Origin: Bryobacterales bacterium
Lineage (GTDB): Bacteria; Acidobacteriota; Terriglobia; Bryobacterales; Bryobacteraceae
Direction: 5' to 3'
DNA: 64,000 bases
Assembly (NCBI GenBank): GCA_003142185.1
Contig: PLOR01000057.1
Span: 32,869 to 96,868 of the forward strand
Of this stretch, positions 1-54,326 are shown one piece after another. Position 1 is the first letter of the stretch. The number at the start of each line of letters is the position of its first letter. Below the pieces are notes generated by a model. The model made no database searches, was not told the DNA's origin, and was given only the letters and a program-made list of their open reading frames with translations. Made by a program: the position numbers and the translations under genes.

Positions 1-16
1 CGCCTGCCCCACTTTG
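1..16 (+). repeat. REP family A, half copy cut by the window edge
   Basis: The first 15 bases, CGCCTGCCCCACTTT, recur exactly at 528-542 on the other side of the transposase gene. They form the right half of the family A palindrome, so the transposase fragment is bracketed by two copies in the same orientation. Confidence 0.7.
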
Positions 17-505
17 TCGGCGGGCCGGGCTTTCGTCGCTTTGGATCGCGAAATGGATAAGGCTGCTTACGGGCCAGTGTGGCTGCGGGATGCCCGTATC
101 GCGCGGGTGGTGGCTGATGCCCTCCTGTATGGCGAGAGCGGTCGGCACTTCTATCAGCTCCGAGCCTGGGTCGTCATGCCCAATCACCTGCATCTACTTC
201 TGCGACCACTAACCGCGCTGCCGGTGATTACGCGCTGGCTGAAAGGCTCTACGGCCCGGCAATCCAACCTGGTTTTGGGCCGAACGGGACAGGTATTCTG
301 GCAAGATGAATCTTTCGATCACCGCGTGCGGGATGAAGAGGAATTGGAGCGGATCGCCCGTTATGTGGAACACAACCCGGTAAGCGCTGGCCTGTCGGTG
401 AGTCCAGGCGACTGGCCATGGTCAAGCGCAGGGTTGGCAGGCGGAAGCGGCATCGGAGCCGAAAACCGCGGCGCCTTTCCCACTGTGCAGAACATGAGCC
501 GGTGA
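14..505 (+). CDS. REP-associated tyrosine transposase (RAYT, Y1/HUH family), probably 5'-truncated
   Basis: This is a single-strand DNA transposase of the Y1 (HUH) superfamily of the type linked to REP palindromes. Visible signatures are the histidine motif in WVVMPNHLHLLL, the family motif FWQDESFDH, and a catalytic tyrosine context ARYVEHNPVSAGL. The reading frame is open to the window edge, and the TTG at 14 follows directly on a REP half copy. Full-length relatives carry an extra N-terminal segment, so the gene is probably a 5'-truncated remnant. Its last codons overlap another partial REP (431-449), and a complete hairpin copy follows the stop. Assignment to the family is secure; activity is doubtful. 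Confidence 0.85.
   Translation: MSAGRAFVALDREMDKAAYGPVWLRDARIARVVADALLYGESGRHFYQLRAWVVMPNHLHLLLRPLTALPVITRWLKGSTARQSNLVLGRTGQVFWQDESFDHRVRDEEELERIARYVEHNPVSAGLSVSPGDWPWSSAGLAGGSGIGAENRGAFPTVQNMSR
431..449 (+). repeat. REP family A, half copy inside the transposase 3' end
   Basis: The sequence GGGTTGGCAGGCGGAAGCG matches the left half of the complete copy at 511-539. It is read through by the transposase gene and encodes part of its C-terminal tail. Confidence 0.6.
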
Positions 506-510
506 GGGCG

Positions 511-539
511 GGGTTGGCAGGCGAAAGCGCCTGCCCCAC
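511..539 (+). repeat. REP family A, complete hairpin copy
   Basis: A perfect 8-bp stem, GGCAGGCG (516-523) with CGCCTGCC (528-535), closes a four-base AAAG loop. It is preceded by GGTT and followed by CCCACTTT. Copies occur at 6962-6987, 16586-16611 and, degenerate, at 28537-28561. This copy ends one base before the stop codon of tsaC, so it lies between two converging genes and may also act on transcript ends. Confidence 0.85.
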
Positions 540-540
540 T

Positions 541-1173
541 TTACTGCAGACACTCCGCAATCGCCTTCTCATCAACGGCGCCGGGTTTGATCAGGCGCCA
601 GTAGGGTTCGGTGATATCGACCGTGGTCGAACCGAGGCCGGTGCAGGGGCCGCCATCGAGCACCAGGTCCACGCGGCCATCCATCAGGGCGAAGACATCG
701 ATACCGCTCGCGCAGGTGGGGCTGCCGGAGATGTTGGCGCTGGTGGCGATGAGCGGCTGGTTGGTGAGCGCCACAAGCTGACTGGCGATGGCGGAGCGCG
801 GCTGGCGCATCGCCAAGCGGCCGGTGTTGCCGGTGACCTTCAGCGGCACTCGGGCCGAAGCCGGCACGATGATGGTGAGCGGGCCCGGCCAGAAGCGGCG
901 CGCCAGCAGGAAGAAGCGGTTGTTTAACTCGCTGGACAGTTCTTCGGCCATCAGCGTATCGCGGATCAGGATGGGCAGCGAGAGTTGCGGCTCGCGGCCT
1001 TTGGCCTTGAACACCTGGGTGACGGCTCGCAGGTTATACGGGTCGGCCACCAGCGTGTAGAGCGCATCGGTGGGGATGGCCACCACCTGGCCGCGGCGAA
1101 TGGCGGCGGCGGCTCGCTCCAGCACTTCCGGCTGGGGCGACTCGGGATCGACTTCGACCAGGTCGGTTGCCAT
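541..1173 (-). CDS. tsaC: L-threonylcarbamoyladenylate synthase (Sua5/YciO/YrdC family)
   Basis: The enzyme makes threonylcarbamoyl-AMP from threonine, bicarbonate and ATP, the first step of the t6A37 modification of ANN-decoding tRNAs in the cytoplasm. The 210-residue protein is one YrdC domain. Visible landmarks are the substrate motif PTDALYTL (family PTDTxYGL), the KAKGRE region with the nucleotide-binding lysine and arginine, and SANISG. It is the short TsaC form, with no C-terminal Sua5 domain. The gene starts 6 bp after the methyltransferase/MTHFR fusion ends on the same strand, so the two probably share a transcript. A REP palindrome abuts the stop codon. Confidence 0.93.
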   Translation of the reverse strand: MATDLVEVDPESPQPEVLERAAAAIRRGQVVAIPTDALYTLVADPYNLRAVTQVFKAKGREPQLSLPILIRDTLMAEELSSELNNRFFLLARRFWPGPLTIIVPASARVPLKVTGNTGRLAMRQPRSAIASQLVALTNQPLIATSANISGSPTCASGIDVFALMDGRVDLVLDGGPCTGLGSTTVDITEPYWRLIKPGAVDEKAIAECLQ

Positions 1174-6961: not shown

Positions 6962-6987
6962 GGGGCAGGCGCTTCCGCCTGCCAACC
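6962..6987 (-). repeat. REP family A, complete copy (reverse orientation)
   Basis: The reverse complement reads GGTTGGCAGGCGGAAGCGCC then TGCCCC, matching the copy at 511-539 with one loop change. It lies between the two glycan-active genes. Confidence 0.8.
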
Positions 6988-10701: not shown

Positions 10702-11898
10702 ATGGCCGAATTCGTCCTCAAGTACGCCGATGGGCGCGGCGAGATCCACCAGCAGGTGGCGACCGCCGGCTCGGAAAAAGAGCTGCGCGACCGGTACACT
10801 TCCCAGGGCTTCCTGGTGTACACCGTGAAGACGCGGAGCGCGGGAGGCGGCTTCGGGCGGAAGAAGAAAGTCAACCTGGAGAAGTTCCTGATCTTCAACC
10901 AGCAGTTCGTGACGCTGATCCGCGCCGGCCTGCCGATTCTGAAGGGGCTCGATCTGCTGGCCGAGCGGCTGACCGATCCCAAGCTGGGCCCTTATATCAA
11001 GGCGGTGCGGGACGAAGTACACTCGGGCACGCTGCTTTCGCAAGCCTTCCGCCAGCAGGGCGTGTTCCCGAAGATCTATGTGACTTCGGTGATGGCGGGG
11101 GAAAAGAGCGGCAGCCTGACGGAAGTGCTGGACCGGTACATCACCTACCAGAAGATCTCGCTGGCGGTGAAGAAGAAGGTGATGGTATCGCTGCTGTACC
11201 CGAGCGTGCTGATCGTGCTGGTGATCATCCTGATGGTCTTCCTGGTGACCTACGTGGTGCCGACGTTCGCCACGCTCTACACCAGCATGCACGCGCAACT
11301 GCCCGCGTTGACGGTGTTCCTGATCGCGGTCGGCACGGGGGCGCGCAGCTATATTCTGGCGCTGGCGGGGACGCTGGTGGCGGGGATTGCGGGATTCCGC
11401 TGGTGGTCGCGGCGGGAGGCGGCGAGGAACCGGCTGGACCGGATCAAGATGAAACTGCCGGTGGCGGGCGAGATCTGGCTGAAGTACCAGGTGGCGCAGC
11501 TTTCGCGAATCCTCAGCACGCTGCTAACAGGTGGCATTCCGCTGGTGCAGTCGCTCGAGACGGCGGCCGATTCGCTGTCGACGCCGGTGATGAAACAAGC
11601 GATTGAGACGGCGGGCAGAATGGTGCGCGAGGGGCAGCCGCTTTCGGCGTCGCTGCGGGCCTCGAAAATGTTCCCGCCGCTGGCTCTCGACATGATCGAA
11701 GTGGGGGAATCGACCGGCGCGCTGCCGGCGATGCTCAACAGCGTAGCGGAGTTTTTCGAGGAAGACGTGAATACGCGCATGACGGCGACTCTGTCGCTGA
11801 TCGAGCCAGCGATCATGATCGCGATGGGCTCGGTGGTGGCGTTCGTACTGATTGCGCTCTACCTGCCGATCTTCTCATTGGCGGATACGATCCGGTGA
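10702..11898 (+). CDS. gspF: Type II secretion / type IV pilus inner-membrane platform protein (GspF/PilC family)
   Basis: The polytopic platform protein couples the assembly ATPase to pseudopilin polymerisation. Two T2SF domains are visible: residues about 60-190, starting LEKFLIFNQQFVTLIRAGLP, and about 260-390, with YQVAQLSRILSTLLTGGIPL and the conserved LDMIEVGESTGALP. Transmembrane segments lie near residues 165-190, 215-235 and at the C-terminus (MIAMGSVVAFVLIALYLPIF). The length of 398 residues is normal. It is followed 8 bp later by the ATPase gene. Confidence 0.93.
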   Translation: MAEFVLKYADGRGEIHQQVATAGSEKELRDRYTSQGFLVYTVKTRSAGGGFGRKKKVNLEKFLIFNQQFVTLIRAGLPILKGLDLLAERLTDPKLGPYIKAVRDEVHSGTLLSQAFRQQGVFPKIYVTSVMAGEKSGSLTEVLDRYITYQKISLAVKKKVMVSLLYPSVLIVLVIILMVFLVTYVVPTFATLYTSMHAQLPALTVFLIAVGTGARSYILALAGTLVAGIAGFRWWSRREAARNRLDRIKMKLPVAGEIWLKYQVAQLSRILSTLLTGGIPLVQSLETAADSLSTPVMKQAIETAGRMVREGQPLSASLRASKMFPPLALDMIEVGESTGALPAMLNSVAEFFEEDVNTRMTATLSLIEPAIMIAMGSVVAFVLIALYLPIFSLADTIR

Positions 11899-11906
11899 AC
11901 TGACGA

Positions 11907-13532
<1,626 letters not shown>

Positions 13533-13539
13533 AACCATG

Positions 13540-13599
13540 CCGCCGTGGCGCGGGCTGTCAAGCCTGCTGTGTCGAGAGTCGTCTCGACATTTCTTCGCC
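13540..13599 (+). repeat. Repeat family C with internal hairpin
   Basis: The element starts CCGCCGTGGCGCGGGCTGTC and contains a stem GTCGAGA/TCTCGAC followed by a T-rich tail. The copies at 16498-16565 and 54272-54324 have CCGAGA/TCTCGG at the same place, so the outer stem pair has changed on both sides. Confidence 0.7.
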
Positions 13600-13601
13600 C
13601 T

Positions 13602-13683
13602 TAGGTGGGATAGACGATCGGTTCTCGTCGTTTGTCAAGGCGCCGGCATGACAGACCACGAAAAGCGATGGTCTGTCCTACCT
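13602..13683 (+). repeat. Repeat family D inverted pair (REPIN-like)
   Basis: A reverse copy (13602-13636) is followed by a forward copy (13650-13683), whose stem GACAGACCA/TGGTCTGTC is perfect over 9 bp and ends CTACCT. The same reverse-forward arrangement occurs at 46352-46444. It separates gspE from the pilM-like gene without breaking the operon order. Confidence 0.75.
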
Positions 13684-13700
13684 GGACGCGGAGGCTCGTG

Positions 13701-14594
13701 GTGCTGCTAGATCGCCTCAAGGCTTACATCCAGGACCCGCCGGCGAATCTGGCGGTGGAGATATCCGAAGCTGGCCTGGCGGGGGCGCGGCTCGGAACCA
13801 GGACCGAGCTCGGCTTCGCGCCGCTCAAGCCGGGCGCGCTGGCGGTGTCACCGGTGCAGGAAAACCTGATCGACCCGGATGAATTCTCGCGCGCGGTGCG
13901 AGCGCTGGCCGGAGTGGAGACCGGCCGCAAGCGCCGCGACGTGGCTCTCATTCTGCCGGATTACTGCACGCGCATCGCGGTGCTGGATTTCGATTCGTTT
14001 CCGGGCGATGCGAAAGAGCAGGCGTCGCTGATCCGCTTCCGCCTGAAGCGGAGCGTGCCGTTCGACGCCGAATCGGCGGCGCTGAGTTACTGGGCGGAGC
14101 CGGGCGGCACGGGGAAGAAAGTGGACGTGCTGGTGGCGATGGCGCCGCTCGAAGTGGTATCGCGGTACGAAGCGCCGTTCCGCGCGGCGGGAATGAACCC
14201 GGGGCTGGTGATCCCCTCGTCGCTGGCGGCGATTGAGCTGGCGCCGGACGGCGGATTGAGCTTGCTGGCGAAACTGACCGGGCGCGTGCTCACCGTGGTG
14301 GCGCGGCAGGCGGGTGTGCCGAAGCTGGTGCGCTGCCTGGAGCTGCCGGTCTCCGACCTGGACGAGATAGCGGCCGTGCTGGCGCCCACCCTCGTCTACC
14401 TGGAAGACAACCTGGGAGGCAAGGCGGAGAAACTGTACCTGTGCGGCTTCGGCGCGGAGACGAACGAAGCCGAGCGGCGCTTCGCCGAGGAATTGGCGGT
14501 GGCTGTGGAAACGGTGCGGTCGCCCTTGGGCGTGCCCGGGGAAAGTAACGCCGGCCTGTTGGGCTATTTGCGGTCGATCGCGAGAAACAATTGA
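13701..14594 (+). CDS. PilM-like actin-fold pilus assembly protein
   Basis: By position and sequence this is the cytoplasmic actin-fold component that binds PilN in type IV pilus-type machines. Its start region contains VEISEAGLAGARL, with later blocks DVALILPDYCTRIAVLDFD, EQASLIRFRLKRSVPFDAE and the C-terminal LYLCGFGAE. The GTG at 13701 is preferred, because GGAG lies about seven bases upstream and the earlier in-frame ATG would translate a family D repeat. The protein is 297 residues, somewhat shorter than typical PilM. One base separates its stop from the pilN-like start. Confidence 0.78.
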   Translation: MLLDRLKAYIQDPPANLAVEISEAGLAGARLGTRTELGFAPLKPGALAVSPVQENLIDPDEFSRAVRALAGVETGRKRRDVALILPDYCTRIAVLDFDSFPGDAKEQASLIRFRLKRSVPFDAESAALSYWAEPGGTGKKVDVLVAMAPLEVVSRYEAPFRAAGMNPGLVIPSSLAAIELAPDGGLSLLAKLTGRVLTVVARQAGVPKLVRCLELPVSDLDEIAAVLAPTLVYLEDNLGGKAEKLYLCGFGAETNEAERRFAEELAVAVETVRSPLGVPGESNAGLLGYLRSIARNN

Positions 14595-14595
14595 G

Positions 14596-15162
14596 ATGAG
14601 GATTCCGATCAACCTGGCGAGCCAGCCGTTCCGGCGCGACCGGCCGATGCTGTTGGCGTCGGCGGTGGTGTCGGCCGCGCTGTTGCTGACGCTGGTGCTG
14701 CTCATTTACCTGGCGCTGCTCGACCGGGCGCAGCTCGAGAGCCTGCGCGGCGACGTGAGCCGCCTGGATAGCCGCCTGCGGGTGGTGCGGGCGGAGCAGG
14801 CGCGCATGGACGCGGTGCTGCACCAGCCGGAGAACGCGAGCGTGCTGGAGCGCAGCGTCTTTCTCAACGATCTGATCTATCACAAGGCGATCAGTTGGAG
14901 CCGCATGTTCGCGGACCTGGAAAAGACGGCGCCGTACAACGTGCGCATCACGGCGCTGCACCCGACCATCGATTCGCGCAACCAGGTGATGCTGGATATG
15001 ACGGCGGCGTCGAACGAGCCGGAGGGGATTGAAGACCTGCTAAAGGCGCTGGAGGCGTCGCCGATTTTCGGCTACGTGTACCAGCACAGCACGCTGCCGC
15101 CCACGCAGGCCGAGCCGCAATACCGCAGCCGCATCACGGTGCCCTATGACCAGAAACTTTGA
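14596..15162 (+). CDS. PilN-like inner-membrane assembly protein
   Basis: A bitopic protein with the PilN signature start (MRIPINLASQPFRRDRP), one transmembrane helix at residues 18-40, a coiled coil (LRGDVSRLDSRLRVVRAEQ) and a small periplasmic ferredoxin-like domain. It should bind the PilM-like protein through its N-terminal INLAS segment and pair with the PilO-like protein. Its last 17 bases overlap the next gene. Confidence 0.8.
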   Translation: MRIPINLASQPFRRDRPMLLASAVVSAALLLTLVLLIYLALLDRAQLESLRGDVSRLDSRLRVVRAEQARMDAVLHQPENASVLERSVFLNDLIYHKAISWSRMFADLEKTAPYNVRITALHPTIDSRNQVMLDMTAASNEPEGIEDLLKALEASPIFGYVYQHSTLPPTQAEPQYRSRITVPYDQKL

Positions 15163-15742
15163 GTGGGCCAAAATCGACAGGATCAAGGAACCGCGCGTGG
15201 CGATGCGCGCGCTGATCGGCGTGCTGGTGGCGGCGAACCTGGCGGCGGCGGTGATGGCATTCCGGCCGTTCGGCGGGTCGGCGGAAGATCTGCGGCGGCG
15301 GGCCGGCGGCTTGCAGGATCAACTGGCGGCGGCGCAGGCGCACGTGGTCATCACACGGAAGCTGGTGGAGAAGGTGGAAGGGGCACGGCGCGACGGCGAC
15401 CAGTTCCTGGCCCGGTACGTAGTGGACCGCCGCAAAGCTTCCTCGGCGTTGAACGAAGAGTTGTTCCGCATGGCGGCGGAGGCCGGCGTTAAGCCGGGGC
15501 AGATTGCGAACGAATATGAGGCGATCGAAGGCAGCGATACGCTGCAAATGGTGAATATCCAGGTGGCGTTTGAAGGATCGTACCAGAATCTCACGCGGCT
15601 GGTGGACCTGATCGACAAATCGCCGCGGTTTCTGATGATCGAGAGCCTGCAGACGGCGGCGCCGCAGGGGAACTCGGGGCTCATGGCGGTCCAGTTCAAG
15701 ATCCACACGTTTGTGCGGGGCGCGCTGGAGGATGCGCCGTGA
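15146..15742 (+). CDS. PilO-like inner-membrane assembly protein
   Basis: A single transmembrane helix (residues 20-40) is followed by a coiled coil (EDLRRRAGGLQDQLAAAQ) and a periplasmic domain with VNIQVAFEGSYQNLTRLVDL, matching PilO organisation. It overlaps the pilN-like gene by 17 bp and the next gene by 4 bp (GTGA), which implies coupled translation and a shared complex. Confidence 0.8.
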   Translation: MTRNFEWAKIDRIKEPRVAMRALIGVLVAANLAAAVMAFRPFGGSAEDLRRRAGGLQDQLAAAQAHVVITRKLVEKVEGARRDGDQFLARYVVDRRKASSALNEELFRMAAEAGVKPGQIANEYEAIEGSDTLQMVNIQVAFEGSYQNLTRLVDLIDKSPRFLMIESLQTAAPQGNSGLMAVQFKIHTFVRGALEDAP

Positions 15743-16485
15743 AGACTGGCCTGGAAGATAAGAGAAAGGTAGCCGCGCTGGCAGTGCTCGGGCTGGTGGC
15801 GGCGTATTTCTTTTACGCCAATGTGCTGGCGCCGCAGGGTGGGACGCCAACGAGTGGGGGTGCGGCGGCAGCCAGCGCTCCCGACGAGCATCCCACGGAT
15901 GCCGGGGCGGCGCATCGAACCGTTGCCGCGCCGGCAGCCGAGCCATCGCCGCGCGTGGCAGCGCGGGCGGCCCGGCCGGCGGAGCGCAACCGGAACGAAG
16001 AGTTCCACCCGGTGCTGCATTCCAAGAATCCGGAGGAGCAGATCGATCCCAACACAGTGGATCCCCGGATCCGGCTCGACCTGCTGGCCAAATTGCAGAG
16101 CGTGGCGCCGGCCGGCGGTGGGCGCAACCTTTTTCAGACAGGCCCGGCGCCGCCACCGAAGCCGAAAGGGCCGGAGCCGATCATCAAGCCGAACAAGCCG
16201 CTGCCCGGCCCCCCGGACGTCTTTCACACGGACCCGGTGGTGGCGCAGGGTCCGCCGCCGCTGCCTCCGATCACGTTCAAGTATTATGGGCTCACCACGA
16301 TTCGAAGGAACGGTAAGCGCACCGCGTTTTTCATGAGCGGCGAAGAGATTCTGATTCGGGCGGTGGGCGACACGGTGGTCGGCAGCTACAAACTGGTGAG
16401 TATCGGCCTGACTTCGGCGGTGGTCGAGGATACGCAGTCGAAGCGGCAACAGACAGTGCCGCTGGCCGAGGAAGCGCAGGTATGA
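15739..16485 (+). CDS. PilP/GspC-like periplasmic linker protein (putative)
   Basis: The 248-residue protein has one N-terminal transmembrane helix (VAALAVLGLVAAYFFYANV), a long Ala/Pro/Gln-rich linker and a short C-terminal beta domain (ITFKYYGLTTIRRNGKRTAF ending ...VVEDTQSKRQQTVPL). That layout fits PilP or GspC homology regions, which contact the secretin; similarity is weak, so the name rests mainly on gene order. It starts at a GTG overlapping the previous stop, and its own stop overlaps the next ATG. Confidence 0.6.
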   Translation: MKTGLEDKRKVAALAVLGLVAAYFFYANVLAPQGGTPTSGGAAAASAPDEHPTDAGAAHRTVAAPAAEPSPRVAARAARPAERNRNEEFHPVLHSKNPEEQIDPNTVDPRIRLDLLAKLQSVAPAGGGRNLFQTGPAPPPKPKGPEPIIKPNKPLPGPPDVFHTDPVVAQGPPPLPPITFKYYGLTTIRRNGKRTAFFMSGEEILIRAVGDTVVGSYKLVSIGLTSAVVEDTQSKRQQTVPLAEEAQV

Positions 16486-17936
16486 GGACGAACGCACCGC
16501 GCCGTGGCGCAGCCTGTCAAGGCTGCAGAGCCGAGAGTCATCTCGGCTTTTCTTCCCGCTGCGCCGGCGCGTCTTTCAATGGAGCGGTTGGCAGGCGAAA
16601 GCGCCTGCCCCGCGAAGGCGAGCGCGGCTTCGCCCTGCTGCTGGTGTTTCTGATGGCGGCGGTGATCGGCATTACGCTCTACGCGGAGCTTCCGCGAGTG
16701 GCCATCCAATCGCAGCGCGCCAAAGAACAACTGCTGGTCGAGCGCGGCGAGCAGTTCAAGCGGGCCATCCAGCTCTTCCTGCGGGCCAACAAAGGGACGC
16801 GGTTCCCGGCCGATCTGGACGATCTCGACCGGGGATACAACAACCTTCGTTTCCTGCGCCATCGCTACAAGGACCCGATGACGGGCAAGGACGAGTGGCG
16901 CATCATCCACATGCAGGGCGGCGTGCTGACCGATTCGCTGCTGAACAAGCCGAAGGACAGCGATAAGCAGGAAGCATCCACGCTGGGGCAGAACATCAGC
17001 GCGCAACTGGGGCTGGGGGAAACGGCCAGCGCGGGCCAGGCGCAGCCGAACGCGACGAACCGGCGCCGGCCGAGCGAAGGCGGCACCGGCGGAGGAATCG
17101 GCCCGGACGGGCAGCCGATCCAGCCGGCCGACCAGGGGAATGGGACGCAGCCGGACGCGGGACCCGGCGGAACGGCGCCGTCGCAGCCGCCGGGAACTCC
17201 CGGCATGCCGGGCGGCCCTGGCTCGCCCTTTGGCGCTGCGCCGGGCTCAGCCCCTTTTCCGGGGATGCCAGGCGCGCCGGGTCAGTTCCCAGGCCAGTTT
17301 CCGGGCCAGCCGCCAGGCATGCCCGGCGGGACGAACGCCGGCAACACGGGAGACAGCGGGTCAACGGTCGGCGGCTATGGTTCGACGGTGGGAAACGGCG
17401 CGGCGACCGGTGGGCTGAATCCGGCAAATGCCGGCAGCGCGGCAAATCCGATGGTGCCGGGGCAGAACACTGCGGCGCAGAACATGCTTCAAAACCTGCT
17501 GGGAACTCCGCGGCCGAACGGCGCTCCTCCGGGGATTGGCCAAGGTCAGGGCACGGTGATCGGCGGCGGCATGGCCGGCGTGGCGAGCAAGATGGATGCC
17601 GAGGGTCTGATGGTCTATAACGACCGAACCAATTACAAGGAGTGGGAGTTCGTTTACGACCCCACCAAAGACCGCCCGCGCCAGGACCCGCGCAGCATGC
17701 TGGTCGGCAACCAAATGGGCACGCCATCGACTCCCACGCCAGGCACGACGACGACACCCAGCCAGTCGGGGACGTTCAGCCAATCCGGACAGAGCGGAAC
17801 GAGCGGACAGATGGGAACCAGCGGAACGGGCGGAACCAGCGGACAGACGGGAACGAACGGGCAGACCGGCACGCCTTCGGGCACCGGCACCTCCAGCCAG
17901 GGCGCACCGATCGACATCCGGCCAGGAAAAAAGTAG
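16482..17936 (+). CDS. Prepilin-type (pseudopilin) protein with repeat-derived leader and Gly/Pro/Thr-rich tail
   Basis: A prepilin peptidase site is visible at ERG|FALLLVFLMAAVIGI (G49/F50), followed by the pilin stalk helix and RYKDPMTGKDEWRIIH, typical of GspG-like acidobacterial pseudopilins. Position +5 is leucine instead of glutamate. The ATG overlaps the preceding stop (ATGA), so it is the natural coupled start; codons 6-44 are encoded by a family C repeat and a family A REP, giving an unusually long 49-residue leader. The C-terminal 300 residues are low complexity (PGMPGGPGSPFG; GTSGQMGTSGTGG). The protein would be polymerised by the upstream GspE/GspF machine. No secretin gene follows. 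Confidence 0.8.
   Translation: MRTNAPRRGAACQGCRAESHLGFSSRCAGASFNGAVGRRKRLPREGERGFALLLVFLMAAVIGITLYAELPRVAIQSQRAKEQLLVERGEQFKRAIQLFLRANKGTRFPADLDDLDRGYNNLRFLRHRYKDPMTGKDEWRIIHMQGGVLTDSLLNKPKDSDKQEASTLGQNISAQLGLGETASAGQAQPNATNRRRPSEGGTGGGIGPDGQPIQPADQGNGTQPDAGPGGTAPSQPPGTPGMPGGPGSPFGAAPGSAPFPGMPGAPGQFPGQFPGQPPGMPGGTNAGNTGDSGSTVGGYGSTVGNGAATGGLNPANAGSAANPMVPGQNTAAQNMLQNLLGTPRPNGAPPGIGQGQGTVIGGGMAGVASKMDAEGLMVYNDRTNYKEWEFVYDPTKDRPRQDPRSMLVGNQMGTPSTPTPGTTTTPSQSGTFSQSGQSGTSGQMGTSGTGGTSGQTGTNGQTGTPSGTGTSSQGAPIDIRPGKK
16498..16565 (+). repeat. Repeat family C inside the pseudopilin leader
   Basis: It begins GCGCCGTGGCGCAGCCTGTC and contains the hairpin CCGAGA-GTCA-TCTCGG followed by CTTTTCTTC, which would look like an intrinsic terminator if it were not inside an operon. 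It corresponds to the copies at 13540-13599 and 54272-54324. Confidence 0.75.
16586..16611 (+). repeat. REP family A, complete copy inside the pseudopilin leader
   Basis: The stem and loop GGCAGGCGAAAGCGCCTGCC are identical to those of the copy at 511-539. The copy is read in frame as GRRKRLP of the pseudopilin leader. Confidence 0.85.
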
Positions 17937-30165: not shown

Positions 30166-32217
30166 ATGGTCAGTTTAGCCGACATTCTGAACGCCAGAAT
30201 CCTGGTGGTTGACGATCAGGAAGCCAACGTCCGTCTGCTGGAGGGCATGCTGCGTATCGCAGGCTATGCTTCCATCGAGTCTACGATGGATCCGCGCGAG
30301 GTCTGCGAACTTCACCGCAAGAACCGCTACAGCCTGATCCTGCTGGATCTCCAAATGCCCGGCATGGATGGATTCCAGGTGATGGACGGCCTGAAGGAAA
30401 TCGAAGAGGACGGTTATCTTCCGGTTCTCGTCATCACTGCGCAGCCGGCTCACAAGTCGCGCGCTCTCGAAGCCGGTGCTAAGGATTTCGTCAGCAAACC
30501 GTTCGATCTGGCCGAACTGCGCGCGCGTGTGCACAACATTCTGGAAGTGCGCCTGTTGCACCTGGAAACCAAGAACTATAGCAAAGCGCTGGAGGAGACG
30601 GTCCGGGAACTCGAGGCAAGCCGCGAGGTGGTTCGTCTTTTCGATATCGCGGAACACAAGGCAGCGGAAGAACGGCTGCATGTCCTCTCCGATGCCGTGG
30701 AACAGAGCCCGGTCAGCATCGTGATCACGGACTTGGAGGGCAACATCGAATATGTCAACCTCAGGACCACCGAGACCACCGGCTACACATTCGAGGAGTT
30801 GAAAGGGAAAAACCCTCGCATCCTGAAGTCGGGCTATACGTCGGACGAAGAGTACCGGAAGCTTTGGGCGACCATCCCCACCGGCGAGTGGCGCGGCACA
30901 TTTCACAACAAGAAGAAGAACGGTGAACTTTTTTGGGAAACCGCAAGTATCCGTCCCATTCTCGACGCTTCCGGCAAACCCGCCCACTATCTGGCGGTGA
31001 AGCAAGATGTCACCGAGCGCAAACTGGCGGATGATAAGATTGCCTGGCTGGCTTCCTTTCCCGAACAGAGCCCCCATCCCGTTGTAGAAATCGAAGGGCC
31101 AAGCGGGGTGGTCCGCTATGTCAATCCGGTAGCCCGAGACTTGTTTCCGGACCTGCAGCGGCAGGGATGGGCTCATCCTTGGCTGGCCGGCTTGGAACAG
31201 TTGGTGGAAGGGTTGACCCCGGCGGACGAGGACGAAGCGCGTCGGGACGTAACCGTAGACGATCGCTGTTGGGCTCGGAGCATTCAGTACCTTCCGGAGG
31301 TGCGGCGGTTGCGAGTCTATGGCACCGACATCACGGAACGTAAACGGGCGGAGGAGGCCCTCCGCCAGAGTGAAATCCAGCTCCTGATGGCGCAGAAGCT
31401 GGAGTCTATCGGACAGCTTGCGGCAGGGATCGCCCACGAAATCAATACCCCCATACAATACATCGGCGACAACGCCAAGTTTCTGGACGAAGCGTTCCGC
31501 GACCTGCTTCGCTTCGTCGAGCCAAATACGGAATTGGCCAGTGCCCTTCGCAACTCCGGCCGGCCCGATTTGGTAACCGCCCTGGACCAGACCGTGCAAA
31601 ACCTGGACCTGAACTACTTGCGCGACGAGATTCCCAAAGCCACCGAACAACTGCTCGAAGGCGTGGCCCAGGTCGCGCGCATCGTTCGAGCGATGAAAGA
31701 GTTCTCGCATCCGGGTCCCGTGGAGAAGGCGCCGGTAGACATTAATCGCGCCATCGAAAGCACCATCCTGGTCTCCAAAAACGAATGGAAGTACGTCGCC
31801 GGCCTGACCACCGACCTGGACCCGGAACTGCCACCCGTTCCCTGCATGGCCGGTGAGTTCAACCAGGTGATGCTGAACCTGATTGTGAACGCGGCCCAAG
31901 CGATTGGCGACGTGGTGCGCGGCTCGAACCGGAAGGGCTCCATCCGCATCGGCACGCGCCGCGATGGCGAGTGGGTGGAAGTCCGGGTGAGCGATACCGG
32001 AACCGGCATTCCCGAAGACATCCGGGCCAGGATGTTTACACCGTTCTTCACCACCAAGGAGGTGGGCAAAGGCACCGGGCAGGGCTTGGCGATGGCGCAT
32101 GCGGTGATCGTTAAGAAACACCAGGGTACTATCCGTTTTGAGTCCGAAACCGGCGTTGGCACCACCTTCGTGGTTCGACTTCCGCTAGGCGCTCCGCTCC
32201 TTGGAGGATTAAGTTAA
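30166..32217 (+). CDS. Histidine kinase with N-terminal receiver domain and PAS sensors
   Basis: The order is receiver (residues 10-128, D16/D17, D61 in LILLDLQMPGMDG, K111), coiled linker, PAS-PAC (about 172-290), a second PAS-like segment (about 300-395), then the kinase core with H424 in [18 protein letters not shown], an N box ([14 protein letters not shown]), VSDTGTGIPED and [15 protein letters not shown]. There is no transmembrane segment, so it is a soluble sensor that itself receives phosphate. From nucleotide 31006 on it is nearly identical to the downstream kinase. The stop overlaps the next ATG (TAATG). Confidence 0.92.
   Translation: MVSLADILNARILVVDDQEANVRLLEGMLRIAGYASIESTMDPREVCELHRKNRYSLILLDLQMPGMDGFQVMDGLKEIEEDGYLPVLVITAQPAHKSRALEAGAKDFVSKPFDLAELRARVHNILEVRLLHLETKNYSKALEETVRELEASREVVRLFDIAEHKAAEERLHVLSDAVEQSPVSIVITDLEGNIEYVNLRTTETTGYTFEELKGKNPRILKSGYTSDEEYRKLWATIPTGEWRGTFHNKKKNGELFWETASIRPILDASGKPAHYLAVKQDVTERKLADDKIAWLASFPEQSPHPVVEIEGPSGVVRYVNPVARDLFPDLQRQGWAHPWLAGLEQLVEGLTPADEDEARRDVTVDDRCWARSIQYLPEVRRLRVYGTDITERKRAEEALRQSEIQLLMAQKLESIGQLAAGIAHEINTPIQYIGDNAKFLDEAFRDLLRFVEPNTELASALRNSGRPDLVTALDQTVQNLDLNYLRDEIPKATEQLLEGVAQVARIVRAMKEFSHPGPVEKAPVDINRAIESTILVSKNEWKYVAGLTTDLDPELPPVPCMAGEFNQVMLNLIVNAAQAIGDVVRGSNRKGSIRIGTRRDGEWVEVRVSDTGTGIPEDIRARMFTPFFTTKEVGKGTGQGLAMAHAVIVKKHQGTIRFESETGVGTTFVVRLPLGAPLLGGLS
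31006..32187 (+). repeat. 1.18 kb kinase-core duplication, copy 1
   Basis: This segment and 33840-35021 align without a net gap at a constant offset of 2834 bp, with roughly nine of ten bases identical by eye. Both copies cover the last PAS-like segment, HisKA and HATPase domains. Confidence 0.85.
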
Positions 32218-35045
32218 TGGAGCCTGAGAGAGCTGCATTCGACCTTGGCGCCGCAGATGCCGCGGGTCCGGGCCCCGGCCCGGGCAGTCCCCTTTTTGAC
32301 CGCGCTCCGGTTCCCATGTGGGTCTTCGACCGGGAAAGTCTTCGCTTTCTCGCGGTCAACGATGCCGCAGTGGCGAAGTATGGGTATTCGCGCGAAGAAT
32401 TTCTGGCGTTGACCCTTGCGGACATCCACGCCCCGGCAGATGTCCCGCGGCTCCGGCGGGAATCAACACCTGTCCATGACGCTTCGCCCGTAAAGGGTGG
32501 CGAGTGGAAGCACAGGTCCAAAGCCGGCGAGATCTTCGATGTCGAGACGGCCTCCACCGCCGTTCGGTTCCAAGGTCGCGATGCCCGGATGGCGTTGGCC
32601 TACGACGTGTCGAAGCGCGTGCGCGAACAGCACGACGTTTCGGTTCGCTATGCGGTGACGCGCCTGCTCGCGGAGAGTCCCGGCGACATCACCGACAAGG
32701 CCATGCGGGTCCTGTGCGAATCGTTTGACCTGGTCGAATTGTGGCAATCCTACGAAGCCGACAAAATACTCTTTCGCAAGACGTTCTGGCAGCGCCCGGA
32801 CGATCGAGCCATCAGTCCGGTCGCTGCGCCCATTCCGCTGGAACCCGGCGCAGGCACGCTGGCGCAGACCTGGATCAGCGGTCAGCCGGCCTGGATCGAG
32901 GACTTCGGCCGCGAGCCGGGCTATCGGGACAGAGTAGCGGACCTGCAGAGAGCGGGAATATCGGAGGGCATTGTATTTGCCCTGCGGACCCGCGAAGCTA
33001 CCGCCGGCGTTGTCGCTTTGCTGAGCCGCGGAGGAAGCCAAAGGGATGCCCAGACGATCGAGCTGATGAGGGATCTCGGCACTCAGATCGGGCAGCACGT
33101 GGAGCGCTGCCGGGCCGAAGAGGAACTGCGCAAATCGAGGGAGGATTTCCGCGCCGTCTTCGACGAGGCGCCGATGCCGTACCACGAGATCGACCGTAAT
33201 GGAGTGGTGGTCCGTGTCAACCGTGCCGAATGCGATCTGCTCGGCATGAGCCCCTCCGACATGATTGGGAAGCCCGTCTGGGATTTCGCCGTTCCCGAAG
33301 AGCGCGAGGATAGCCGCGCGTCGGTCGGACGGAAGTTCGCCGAGGGGCGCGTGCAGCCCCCCCACAACCGAAGATATATCGCTGCTAACGGGGAAGAGCG
33401 CATCTTCCAGATTCACGAGCGATTGATCATCCAGCCAGACGGCGAAGTGACGGGTATCCGCACCGCCATGTTGGACCTGACCGGGGCGCAGGAATCCGAG
33501 AGGAAGATCAAGTTTCAGGCCGGCCTGCTGGAACAGGTGGGCGATGCCATCATCACCCTGGATCGCGACTACAGAGTCACCTACTGCAATGAAGCCGCCG
33601 AGCGCCTGTTCGGCATGGCGGCCGGGGAAGCGCTTGGCACGGACTACCGGTCCCTGGTCAGCGTAGAACCGGCCGCCTCGGAGCGCCAGGCGGTCTTCGC
33701 ACCGGTCTCCGAGCGGAGATTCTGGAAAGGCGAAATCGCGGTCACCAATCGCAACGGCAAGCGGACGGTGTTGGACGTCTCCGATTCGGCCTTGCGCGAC
33801 CAGAACGGCGATCTGCAGGGGATTATCGCGATCCTGAGGGATGTCACTGAGCGCAAACTGGCGGAGGACAAGATCGTCTGGCTGGCTTCCTTTCCCGAGC
33901 AGAACCCCAATCCCGTTATGGAAATCGAAGTGCGAAGCGGGTTGGTCCGCTATGTCAATCCGGTAGCCCGAGACTTGTTCCCGGACCTGCAGCGGCAGGG
34001 ATGGACTCATCCTTGGCTGGCCGGTTTGGAGCAGTTGGCGGAAGGGTTGACCCGGGCGGACGAGCACGAAGCGCGTCGGGATGTAATCGTGGATGATCGC
34101 TATTGGGCTCGGACCATTCAGTACCTTCCGGAGGCGCGGCGGGTGCGAGTCTATGGCATCGACATCACGGAACGTAAACGGGCGGAGGAGGCCCTCCGCC
34201 AGAGTCAAAGCCAGCTCCTGATGGCGCAGAAGCTGGAGTCCATCGGACAGCTTGCGGCAGGGATCGCTCACGAAATCAATACCCCCATACAATACATTGG
34301 CGACAACGCCACGTTTCTGGCCGAAGCGTTCCGCGACCTGCTTCGCTTCGTCGAGCCGCATACTGAATTGGCCAGCGCCCTTCGCAACCCCGGCCGGACC
34401 GATTTCGTAACCGCTCTGGAACAGACCGTGCAAAACGTGGACGTGAACTACTTGCGCGACGAGATTCCCAAAGCCACCGAACAACTGCTCGAAGGCGTGG
34501 CCCACGTCGCGCGCATCGTTCGAGCGATGAAGGAATTCTCACATCCGGGTCCCGCGGTGAAGGCGCCGGTAGACATTAATCGCGCCATCGAAAGCACCGT
34601 CCTGATCTCCAGAAACGAATGGAAGTACGTCGCCGAGTTGACGACCGATTTGGATCCGGAACTGCCGCCGGTTCCCTGCGTGGCTGGTGAATTCAACCAG
34701 GTGATCCTCAACTTGATTGTGAACGCGGCCTATGCGATTGGCGACGTGGTGCGCGGCTCGGACCGGAAGGGCTCCATCCGCATCGGCACGCGCCGGGATG
34801 GCGAGTGGGTGGAAGTCAGGGTGAGCGACACCGGCGCCGGCATTCCCGAAGACATCCGGGCCAGAATTTTTACACCGTTTTTCACCACCAAGGAGGTGGG
34901 TAAAGGCACCGGGCAGGGCTTGGCGATGGCGCATGCGGTGATCGTTAAGAAGCATCAGGGTACTATTCGTTTTGAGTCCGAAATCGGCGTTGGTACTACC
35001 TTCGTGGTTCGACTTCCGCTACAATGCGTGGGGGAGAAACCGTGA
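32217..35045 (+). CDS. Multi-PAS/GAF sensor histidine kinase
   Basis: The 942-residue soluble kinase has PAS (about 25-135), GAF (about 140-300), three more PAS segments (about 305-420, 425-545, 550-645) and a kinase core with H685 in [23 protein letters not shown] and [12 protein letters not shown]. No receiver domain is attached. A GGAGG site precedes the ATG, which overlaps the upstream stop; the downstream regulator starts at a GTG overlapping its own stop. It probably phosphorylates that regulator or the receiver of the neighbouring kinase. Confidence 0.92.
33840..35021 (+). repeat. 1.18 kb kinase-core duplication, copy 2
   Basis: This is the second copy of 31006-32187. Similarity is highest across the histidine box and ATPase domain and ends 22 bp before the start of the next gene. 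Confidence 0.85.
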
Positions 35046-54237: not shown

Positions 54238-54271
54238 TTTGTGGGGCGGCTCCCCTGGACCGCGCCCCGCA

Positions 54272-54324
54272 GGAAGAAAAGCCGAGATGACTCTCGGTTC
54301 AGCAGCCTTGACAGGCCGCGCCAC
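54272..54324 (-). repeat. Repeat family C (reverse)
   Basis: On the minus strand it starts CGTGGCGCGGCCTGTCAAGG and holds the CCGAGA/TCTCGG hairpin with a T-rich tail. It ends three bases from the rluD stop codon, in the gap between converging genes. Confidence 0.7.
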
Positions 54325-54326
54325 GA

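Follow-up and report, generated by a model that had tools for sequence, protein, structure and literature searches.

Palindromic repeats in frame within the prepilin-like leader of a Bryobacterales pseudopilin

Palindromic repeats lying in frame inside otherwise normal genes have been described in Rickettsia, where they are known as RPEs (reviewed in PMC10969869; PMC3733652). The RAYT-associated REPs and BIMEs (GTAG and CGTC REPs) are likewise short palindromes with many copies, mostly intergenic and in part adjoining Y1 genes; intragenic and N-terminal copies are also known, and the survey that treated them held many of the N-terminal ones to be probably untranslated (PMC3733652). Class III leaders, the third element of the present case, are cytoplasmic and variable in length (6-26 residues; PMC4471445), end in Gly and are removed (PMC4471445, PMC10191384). 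A very long leader of this class occurs in Streptococcus sanguinis (PMC10191384).

The locus described here resembles the RPEs in behavior, with palindromes in frame within an otherwise normal gene, and no sequence relation to RPE-1 to RPE-10 is claimed. RPEs are spread across many unrelated genes, whereas here many repeat families, unrelated to each other, fall on a single type of site, the removable prepilin leader. With REPs and BIMEs the repeats share their short palindromic form, their many copies outside genes and the copies next to Y1 genes; the survey doubts the translation of N-terminal copies, but the frame statistics presented below argue for it. As in other class III proteins, a hydrophilic leader ending in Gly is followed by a hydrophobic helix, the difference being that length is gained by repeat insertion and reaches 49-100 residues.

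The window, a stretch of 64,000 nucleotides, belongs to a genome of 5.79 Mb in 119 contigs (G000), and among named collections its nearest relatives are Bryobacterales metagenome genomes. It contains an operon (10702-17936) of GspF-like, GspE-like, PilM-, PilN-, GspM- and GspC-like genes with a pseudopilin at the end, and its repeat-bearing junction is composed as follows.

15739-16485, forward strand: GspC-like gene, its stop overlapping the pseudopilin start (ATGA), an arrangement that orthologues conserve.
16482-17936, forward strand: pseudopilin coding sequence, 484 aa, last gene of the GspF-GspE-PilM-PilN-GspM-GspC-like operon, without Glu at +5.
16482-16628, forward strand: prepilin leader, 49 codons, net charge +8, GERG before the cleavage site.
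16499-16589, forward strand: long-form C repeat, with hairpins at 16509-16526 and 16527-16550, an outer stem pairing 16498-16504 with 16565-16571, and a terminator-like T tract at 16547-16554.
16586-16611, forward strand: family A REP, with a hairpin at 16590-16609, encoding the RRKRLP stretch.
16612-16628, forward strand: retained ancestral leader end, matching CGCGATGGCGAGCGCGGC of the sister genome, with cleavage between G49 and F50.

While the operon neighbors match T2SSF, T2SSE and GspM, the pseudopilin itself could be assigned to no Pfam or PDB family at the cut-off used; a sub-threshold GspK-type match lies at its N-terminus, and a PDB sequence search with a 10-sequence profile returned no credible relative. 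The AF2 model, of low confidence (pLDDT 54), shows a disordered leader, a helix at 45-102 and then a three-stranded sheet, which would be consistent with a pseudopilin fold at that low confidence. The cleavage motif GERG/FALL (the slash marks the cut) falls at residues 49/50, as the first-pass annotation had placed it; the Gly is conserved in the orthologues read and G49 is invariant across a 10-sequence alignment. A class III (prepilin-like) signal has a leader ending in Gly or Ala ahead of some 20 hydrophobic residues, and GERG/FALLLVFLMAAVIGITLY has this form. At +5, where Glu is frequent in this class but not universal, the protein has Leu, and its orthologues a hydrophobic residue. GspK-type pseudopilins also lack Glu at this position. 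Since Glu5 is dispensable for prepilin processing (review PMC4471445), its absence does not exclude a class III signal.

Two palindromic repeats make up an uninterrupted composite (16499-16611) that accounts for about 113 of the 147 nt of the leader. The first-pass annotation recognized both, a C repeat at 16498-16565 and an A REP at 16586-16611 supplying RRKRLPRE in frame, and both are present; the stretch 16566-16585, left between them, is also repeat, since the match to long-form C copies at other places extends to about 16589-16599. Folding of a 115-nt stretch gives -64.6 kcal/mol against -48.8 ± 3.8 for shuffled sequences (z -4.2). The terminator-like hairpin attributed to the C repeat exists (GCCGAGA-GTCA-TCTCGGC followed by TTTTCTTC, z -4.5), though a simple scan did not list it, and the family A hairpin reaches z -4.0. 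An Rfam search of 13500-17000 gave no match at E up to 1. ATG 16482 overlaps the upstream stop (ATGA) and is the probable coupled start. No ATG, GTG or TTG follows it in frame ahead of the cleavage site, and a single CTG at 16605 is a formal possibility.

The sole sister genome of the genus compared (G001) has the same locus without the composite. Its upstream and pseudopilin genes are 85-90% identical to those of the window and share the ATGA overlap, and its leader is repeat-free and 16 codons long (MKTARTKVAARDGERG/FALL); the locus is the same as that on fen_298 contig PMKM01000170. About 12 nt stand in the place of the composite, a net gain of 99 nt or 33 codons in the window, with the frame kept. 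An insert inside an open reading frame, a preserved frame and a homologue lacking the insert are also the marks of RPE-like elements. Leaders were read at 86 orthologous loci, 85 of which entered the distance statistics: the median distance from upstream stop to cleavage site is 38 nt, and most of the 85 have leaders of 8-20 codons. Where this gap is below 60 nt (66 orthologues), the median leader has 11.5 residues and a net charge of +3. The short repeat-free leader of the sister, a comparison with one genome, and the typical length in most orthologues support insertion of the composite into the leader in this species with the frame kept. The homolog alignment proposed in the first-pass annotation thus found the short leader that an in-frame REP insertion predicts, and this particular leader is absent from distant relatives.

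Both repeats have further copies, including the following in the window.

13541-13601, forward strand: further C copy, between GspE and PilM of this operon; the leader repeat is 84% identical to its part 13541-13596 over 56 nt.
54269-54325, reverse strand: C copy closest to that of the leader within the window (57 nt, 93%).
1-541, forward strand: REPtron, a Y1 (RAYT-like) transposase gene (2-505) with family A REP on both sides, at 1-12 and at 512-537, the latter identical to the leader copy.

The C repeat matches three other places in the window, and more than 40 relatives were scored in the genome, with matches down to E 7e-26; each genome search scores its 40 best candidates (for C, the 40 best of 304), and the copy numbers are therefore minimum values. 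The A REP of the leader is one of four copies in the window, being identical over 26/26 positions to 512-537 and differing by one mismatch from 6962-6987. Family A shows the features by which REPs are known: a short palindrome, many copies, and copies flanking a Y1/RAYT gene. The gene at 2-505 is one of seven Y1_Tnp matches in the genome, and the REPtron is a likely source of mobility. Family C is palindromic with more than 40 copies, one of them reversed and within the 3'-terminal part of a Y1_Tnp reading frame (L020 964-1590, contig C51), which suggests that this Y1_Tnp may mobilize family C.

A frequent location of C copies within real genes was considered for 30 copies and rejected: most frames across them have no Pfam domain, or the copy lies upstream of the domain, and in the PdxS and FG-GAP genes near C copies the gene start is downstream of the copy. 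A LamG/VanZ-type membrane protein (L025 376-1611) has an N-terminus that reads through a reversed C repeat before its first membrane helix, and an ATG (MTLGSRGL...) is available within this repeat as well. For PilM, the likely start codon (ATG 13668, MVCPTWTRRLVVLLDRLKAYIQ) is part of a different dispersed palindrome, of family D3 (13646-13683; window 13632-13700), and the last possible start of GspH in the same genome (MVRPTSG/VTLIEML) also comes from a palindrome similar to D3; in both cases the start codon seems to be donated by a repeat. The window further holds two 300-nt stretches (D1; 31006-34139) that are 91% identical and 2.8 kb apart.

The insertion had been noted as a single case. 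It is real, but recurrent, with unrelated repeats in other genomes and other pseudopilins. Genome-wide searches, several of them run with concatenated leader queries on what are mostly draft or metagenome assemblies, give repeat-built leaders of 20-100 codons in eight genomes, with repeat families differing from genome to genome: 49 codons in the window, 100 in G031, 91 in G014, 60 in G065, 60 in G101 (ATTGCGGATT-type repeats), 49 in G009 (where another possible ATG lies 8 codons ahead of cleavage), 20 in G063 and 27 in bog_224/G121. Mapped onto a tree built from PilM, PilN, GspM and the mature pilin, the repeat-built state requires 8 changes, at least 7 of them forced by well-supported branches. 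Long leaders are scattered over the tree in a minority of orthologues. A repeat origin of all long leaders was considered and rejected: those of G067, G034, G027 and G042 are unique in their own genomes. The repeat origin of the G122 leader is doubtful, and the G052 (L127) leader was assessed by a local repeat test only.

Other pseudopilins show the same pattern. Among 12 relatives with a gap of at least 60 nt before GspK, the coupled frame is open in 9, and in none when the frame is shifted. GspK leaders of 40-73 codons contain repeats, confirmed genome-wide or locally, in G037, G002, G021, G031, G038, G004 and G020, and that of G021 contains the family A REP of the window. Repeat-built leaders have thus arisen independently, from different repeats, in a dozen or more related genomes, and in a second pilin gene. 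The genome of the window has its own examples in the main T2SS cluster.

L211 7382-9678 (contig C10): GspK and GspJ genes with repeat-filled 5' regions.

Here GspK follows a gap of more than 530 nt with two large repeat blocks, a 280-nt repeat family (more than 30 copies) and a C composite, the C copy sitting before the gene. The coupled frame is broken, and the start must fall within the repeats; counted from an ATG that the reversed C hairpin supplies, the leader has 42 codons. The 34-codon leader of GspJ, which has 12 codons in the sister genome, falls mostly within a dispersed repeat, and in GspH a repeat occupies the leader end. As read from these sequences, four of the six pseudopilins of this genome are predicted to carry repeat-encoded leaders.

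Are the inserts translated? A restart downstream of an insert would leave its frame free, so frame statistics provide a test. Of the 19 orthologues with a gap of at least 60 nt, 14 have an in-frame ATG at the upstream stop and no stop codon from there to the cleavage site, against 0/19 and 0/19 when the frame is shifted by 1 or 2. Control junctions in the same operon (PilM/PilN, GspF/GspE and PilN/GspM), at which the N-terminus of the downstream gene is conserved, show a coupled open frame in 1 of 24 long gaps (Fisher, p ~2e-6 for the pseudopilin gene alone and 8e-8 with GspK added, the threshold for a long gap being slightly different at pilin and control junctions). Of nine coupled leaders at gaps of at least 90 nt, six lack a nearer start within 20 codons, and in several genomes the 34-59 codons that precede cleavage contain no start. 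This comparison points to insertions that stay intergenic at control junctions and may become protein at the pseudopilin. A rule by which junction repeats are always read in frame was rejected, given the control junctions (1/24) and the broken GspK frame of G000, which also tells against universal frame keeping.

The strongest objection is that the composite is a 5' untranslated insertion, with translation restarting, for example, at CTG 16605, and that the open frame is accidental. The resulting leader (LPREGERG/FALL) would have 8 residues, a length common among orthologues, and this counts against the reading preferred here; usable starts after or inside the insert occur also in G009 and in GspK of G000. 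CTG starts are rare, however, and the frame counts at both genes and the start-free leaders described above run against a restart. Although published work cautions that REPs annotated at N-termini frequently go untranslated (PMC3733652), such a restart is considered unlikely for this gene.

It is also conceivable that the repeats are useful, a basic stretch or a translated hairpin aiding targeting, processing or polarity control, with leaders selected as a home for repeats. The A REP does bring RRKR near the point of cleavage, where the last 12 residues have a net charge of +4, and ribosomes reading through would presumably open the terminator-like hairpin. Against this, a basic charge next to the site is absent from other repeat leaders (L152 -1, L133 0, L004 0), sister genomes do with short leaders, and long leaders are a minority. 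A benefit of this kind is doubtful, a shade more so than the restart, and because those other leaders are not basic near the cleavage site, tolerance is likelier than benefit for RRKRLPRE, which the first-pass annotation had regarded as suited to the site.

Repeats collapsed or misjoined at this junction, which a draft in 119 contigs invites since repeats promote misassembly, are a most improbable source of the pattern: the 113-nt insert is short and mid-contig, both flanks are orthologous to the sister genome, and the same pattern recurs in few-contig assemblies (G009, 2 contigs) and with different repeats.

The reading favored with considerable confidence is that a mobile composite, C plus the RAYT-associated A REP, lies in the prepilin leader, is nearly neutral if in frame, and is translated from ATG 16482. 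Two mobile palindromic repeats would have landed as a composite in a short pseudopilin leader. That leader is expected to be cytoplasmic, free in length, mainly hydrophilic with Gly at -1, and discarded by prepilin peptidase, and for this reason an in-frame insertion would be nearly neutral and survive. A ribosome arriving from the upstream gene would start at ATG 16482, pass through the repeat, which fills about 38 of the 49 codons, and arrive at an intact cleavage site, so that in-frame elements in the leader would be invisible in the mature subunit. As the coupled genes have almost no spacing, the leader may catch repeats that seek junctions. From these observations we infer translation of the long form, its correct processing, and neutrality or mild benefit.

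A broader proposal, put forward with some preference and less assurance, is that Acidobacteriota prepilin-like leaders are a general, convergent landing site where unrelated palindromic repeats become translated sequence. In-frame palindromic insertion itself is known; no report of repeat-built prepilin leaders was found in the open-licence papers searched, and the recurrent concentration of in-frame repeats in these leaders appears to be new.

For annotation, it follows that the start codons of such genes may be wrongly assigned and that some of these repeats are not extragenic. The orthologues provide a natural series, with one gene, many unrelated inserts and short-leader sisters, in which the freedom of the leader can be tested, and which bears on how prepilin peptidase handles leaders of 50-100 residues and on how non-coding repeats become code. 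The finding suggests a rule on where bacterial proteins tolerate mobile repeats, namely in parts that are made by translation and later cut away. If leaders are indeed a general landing site, the prepilin leader would be a removable testing ground for mobile DNA turned code.
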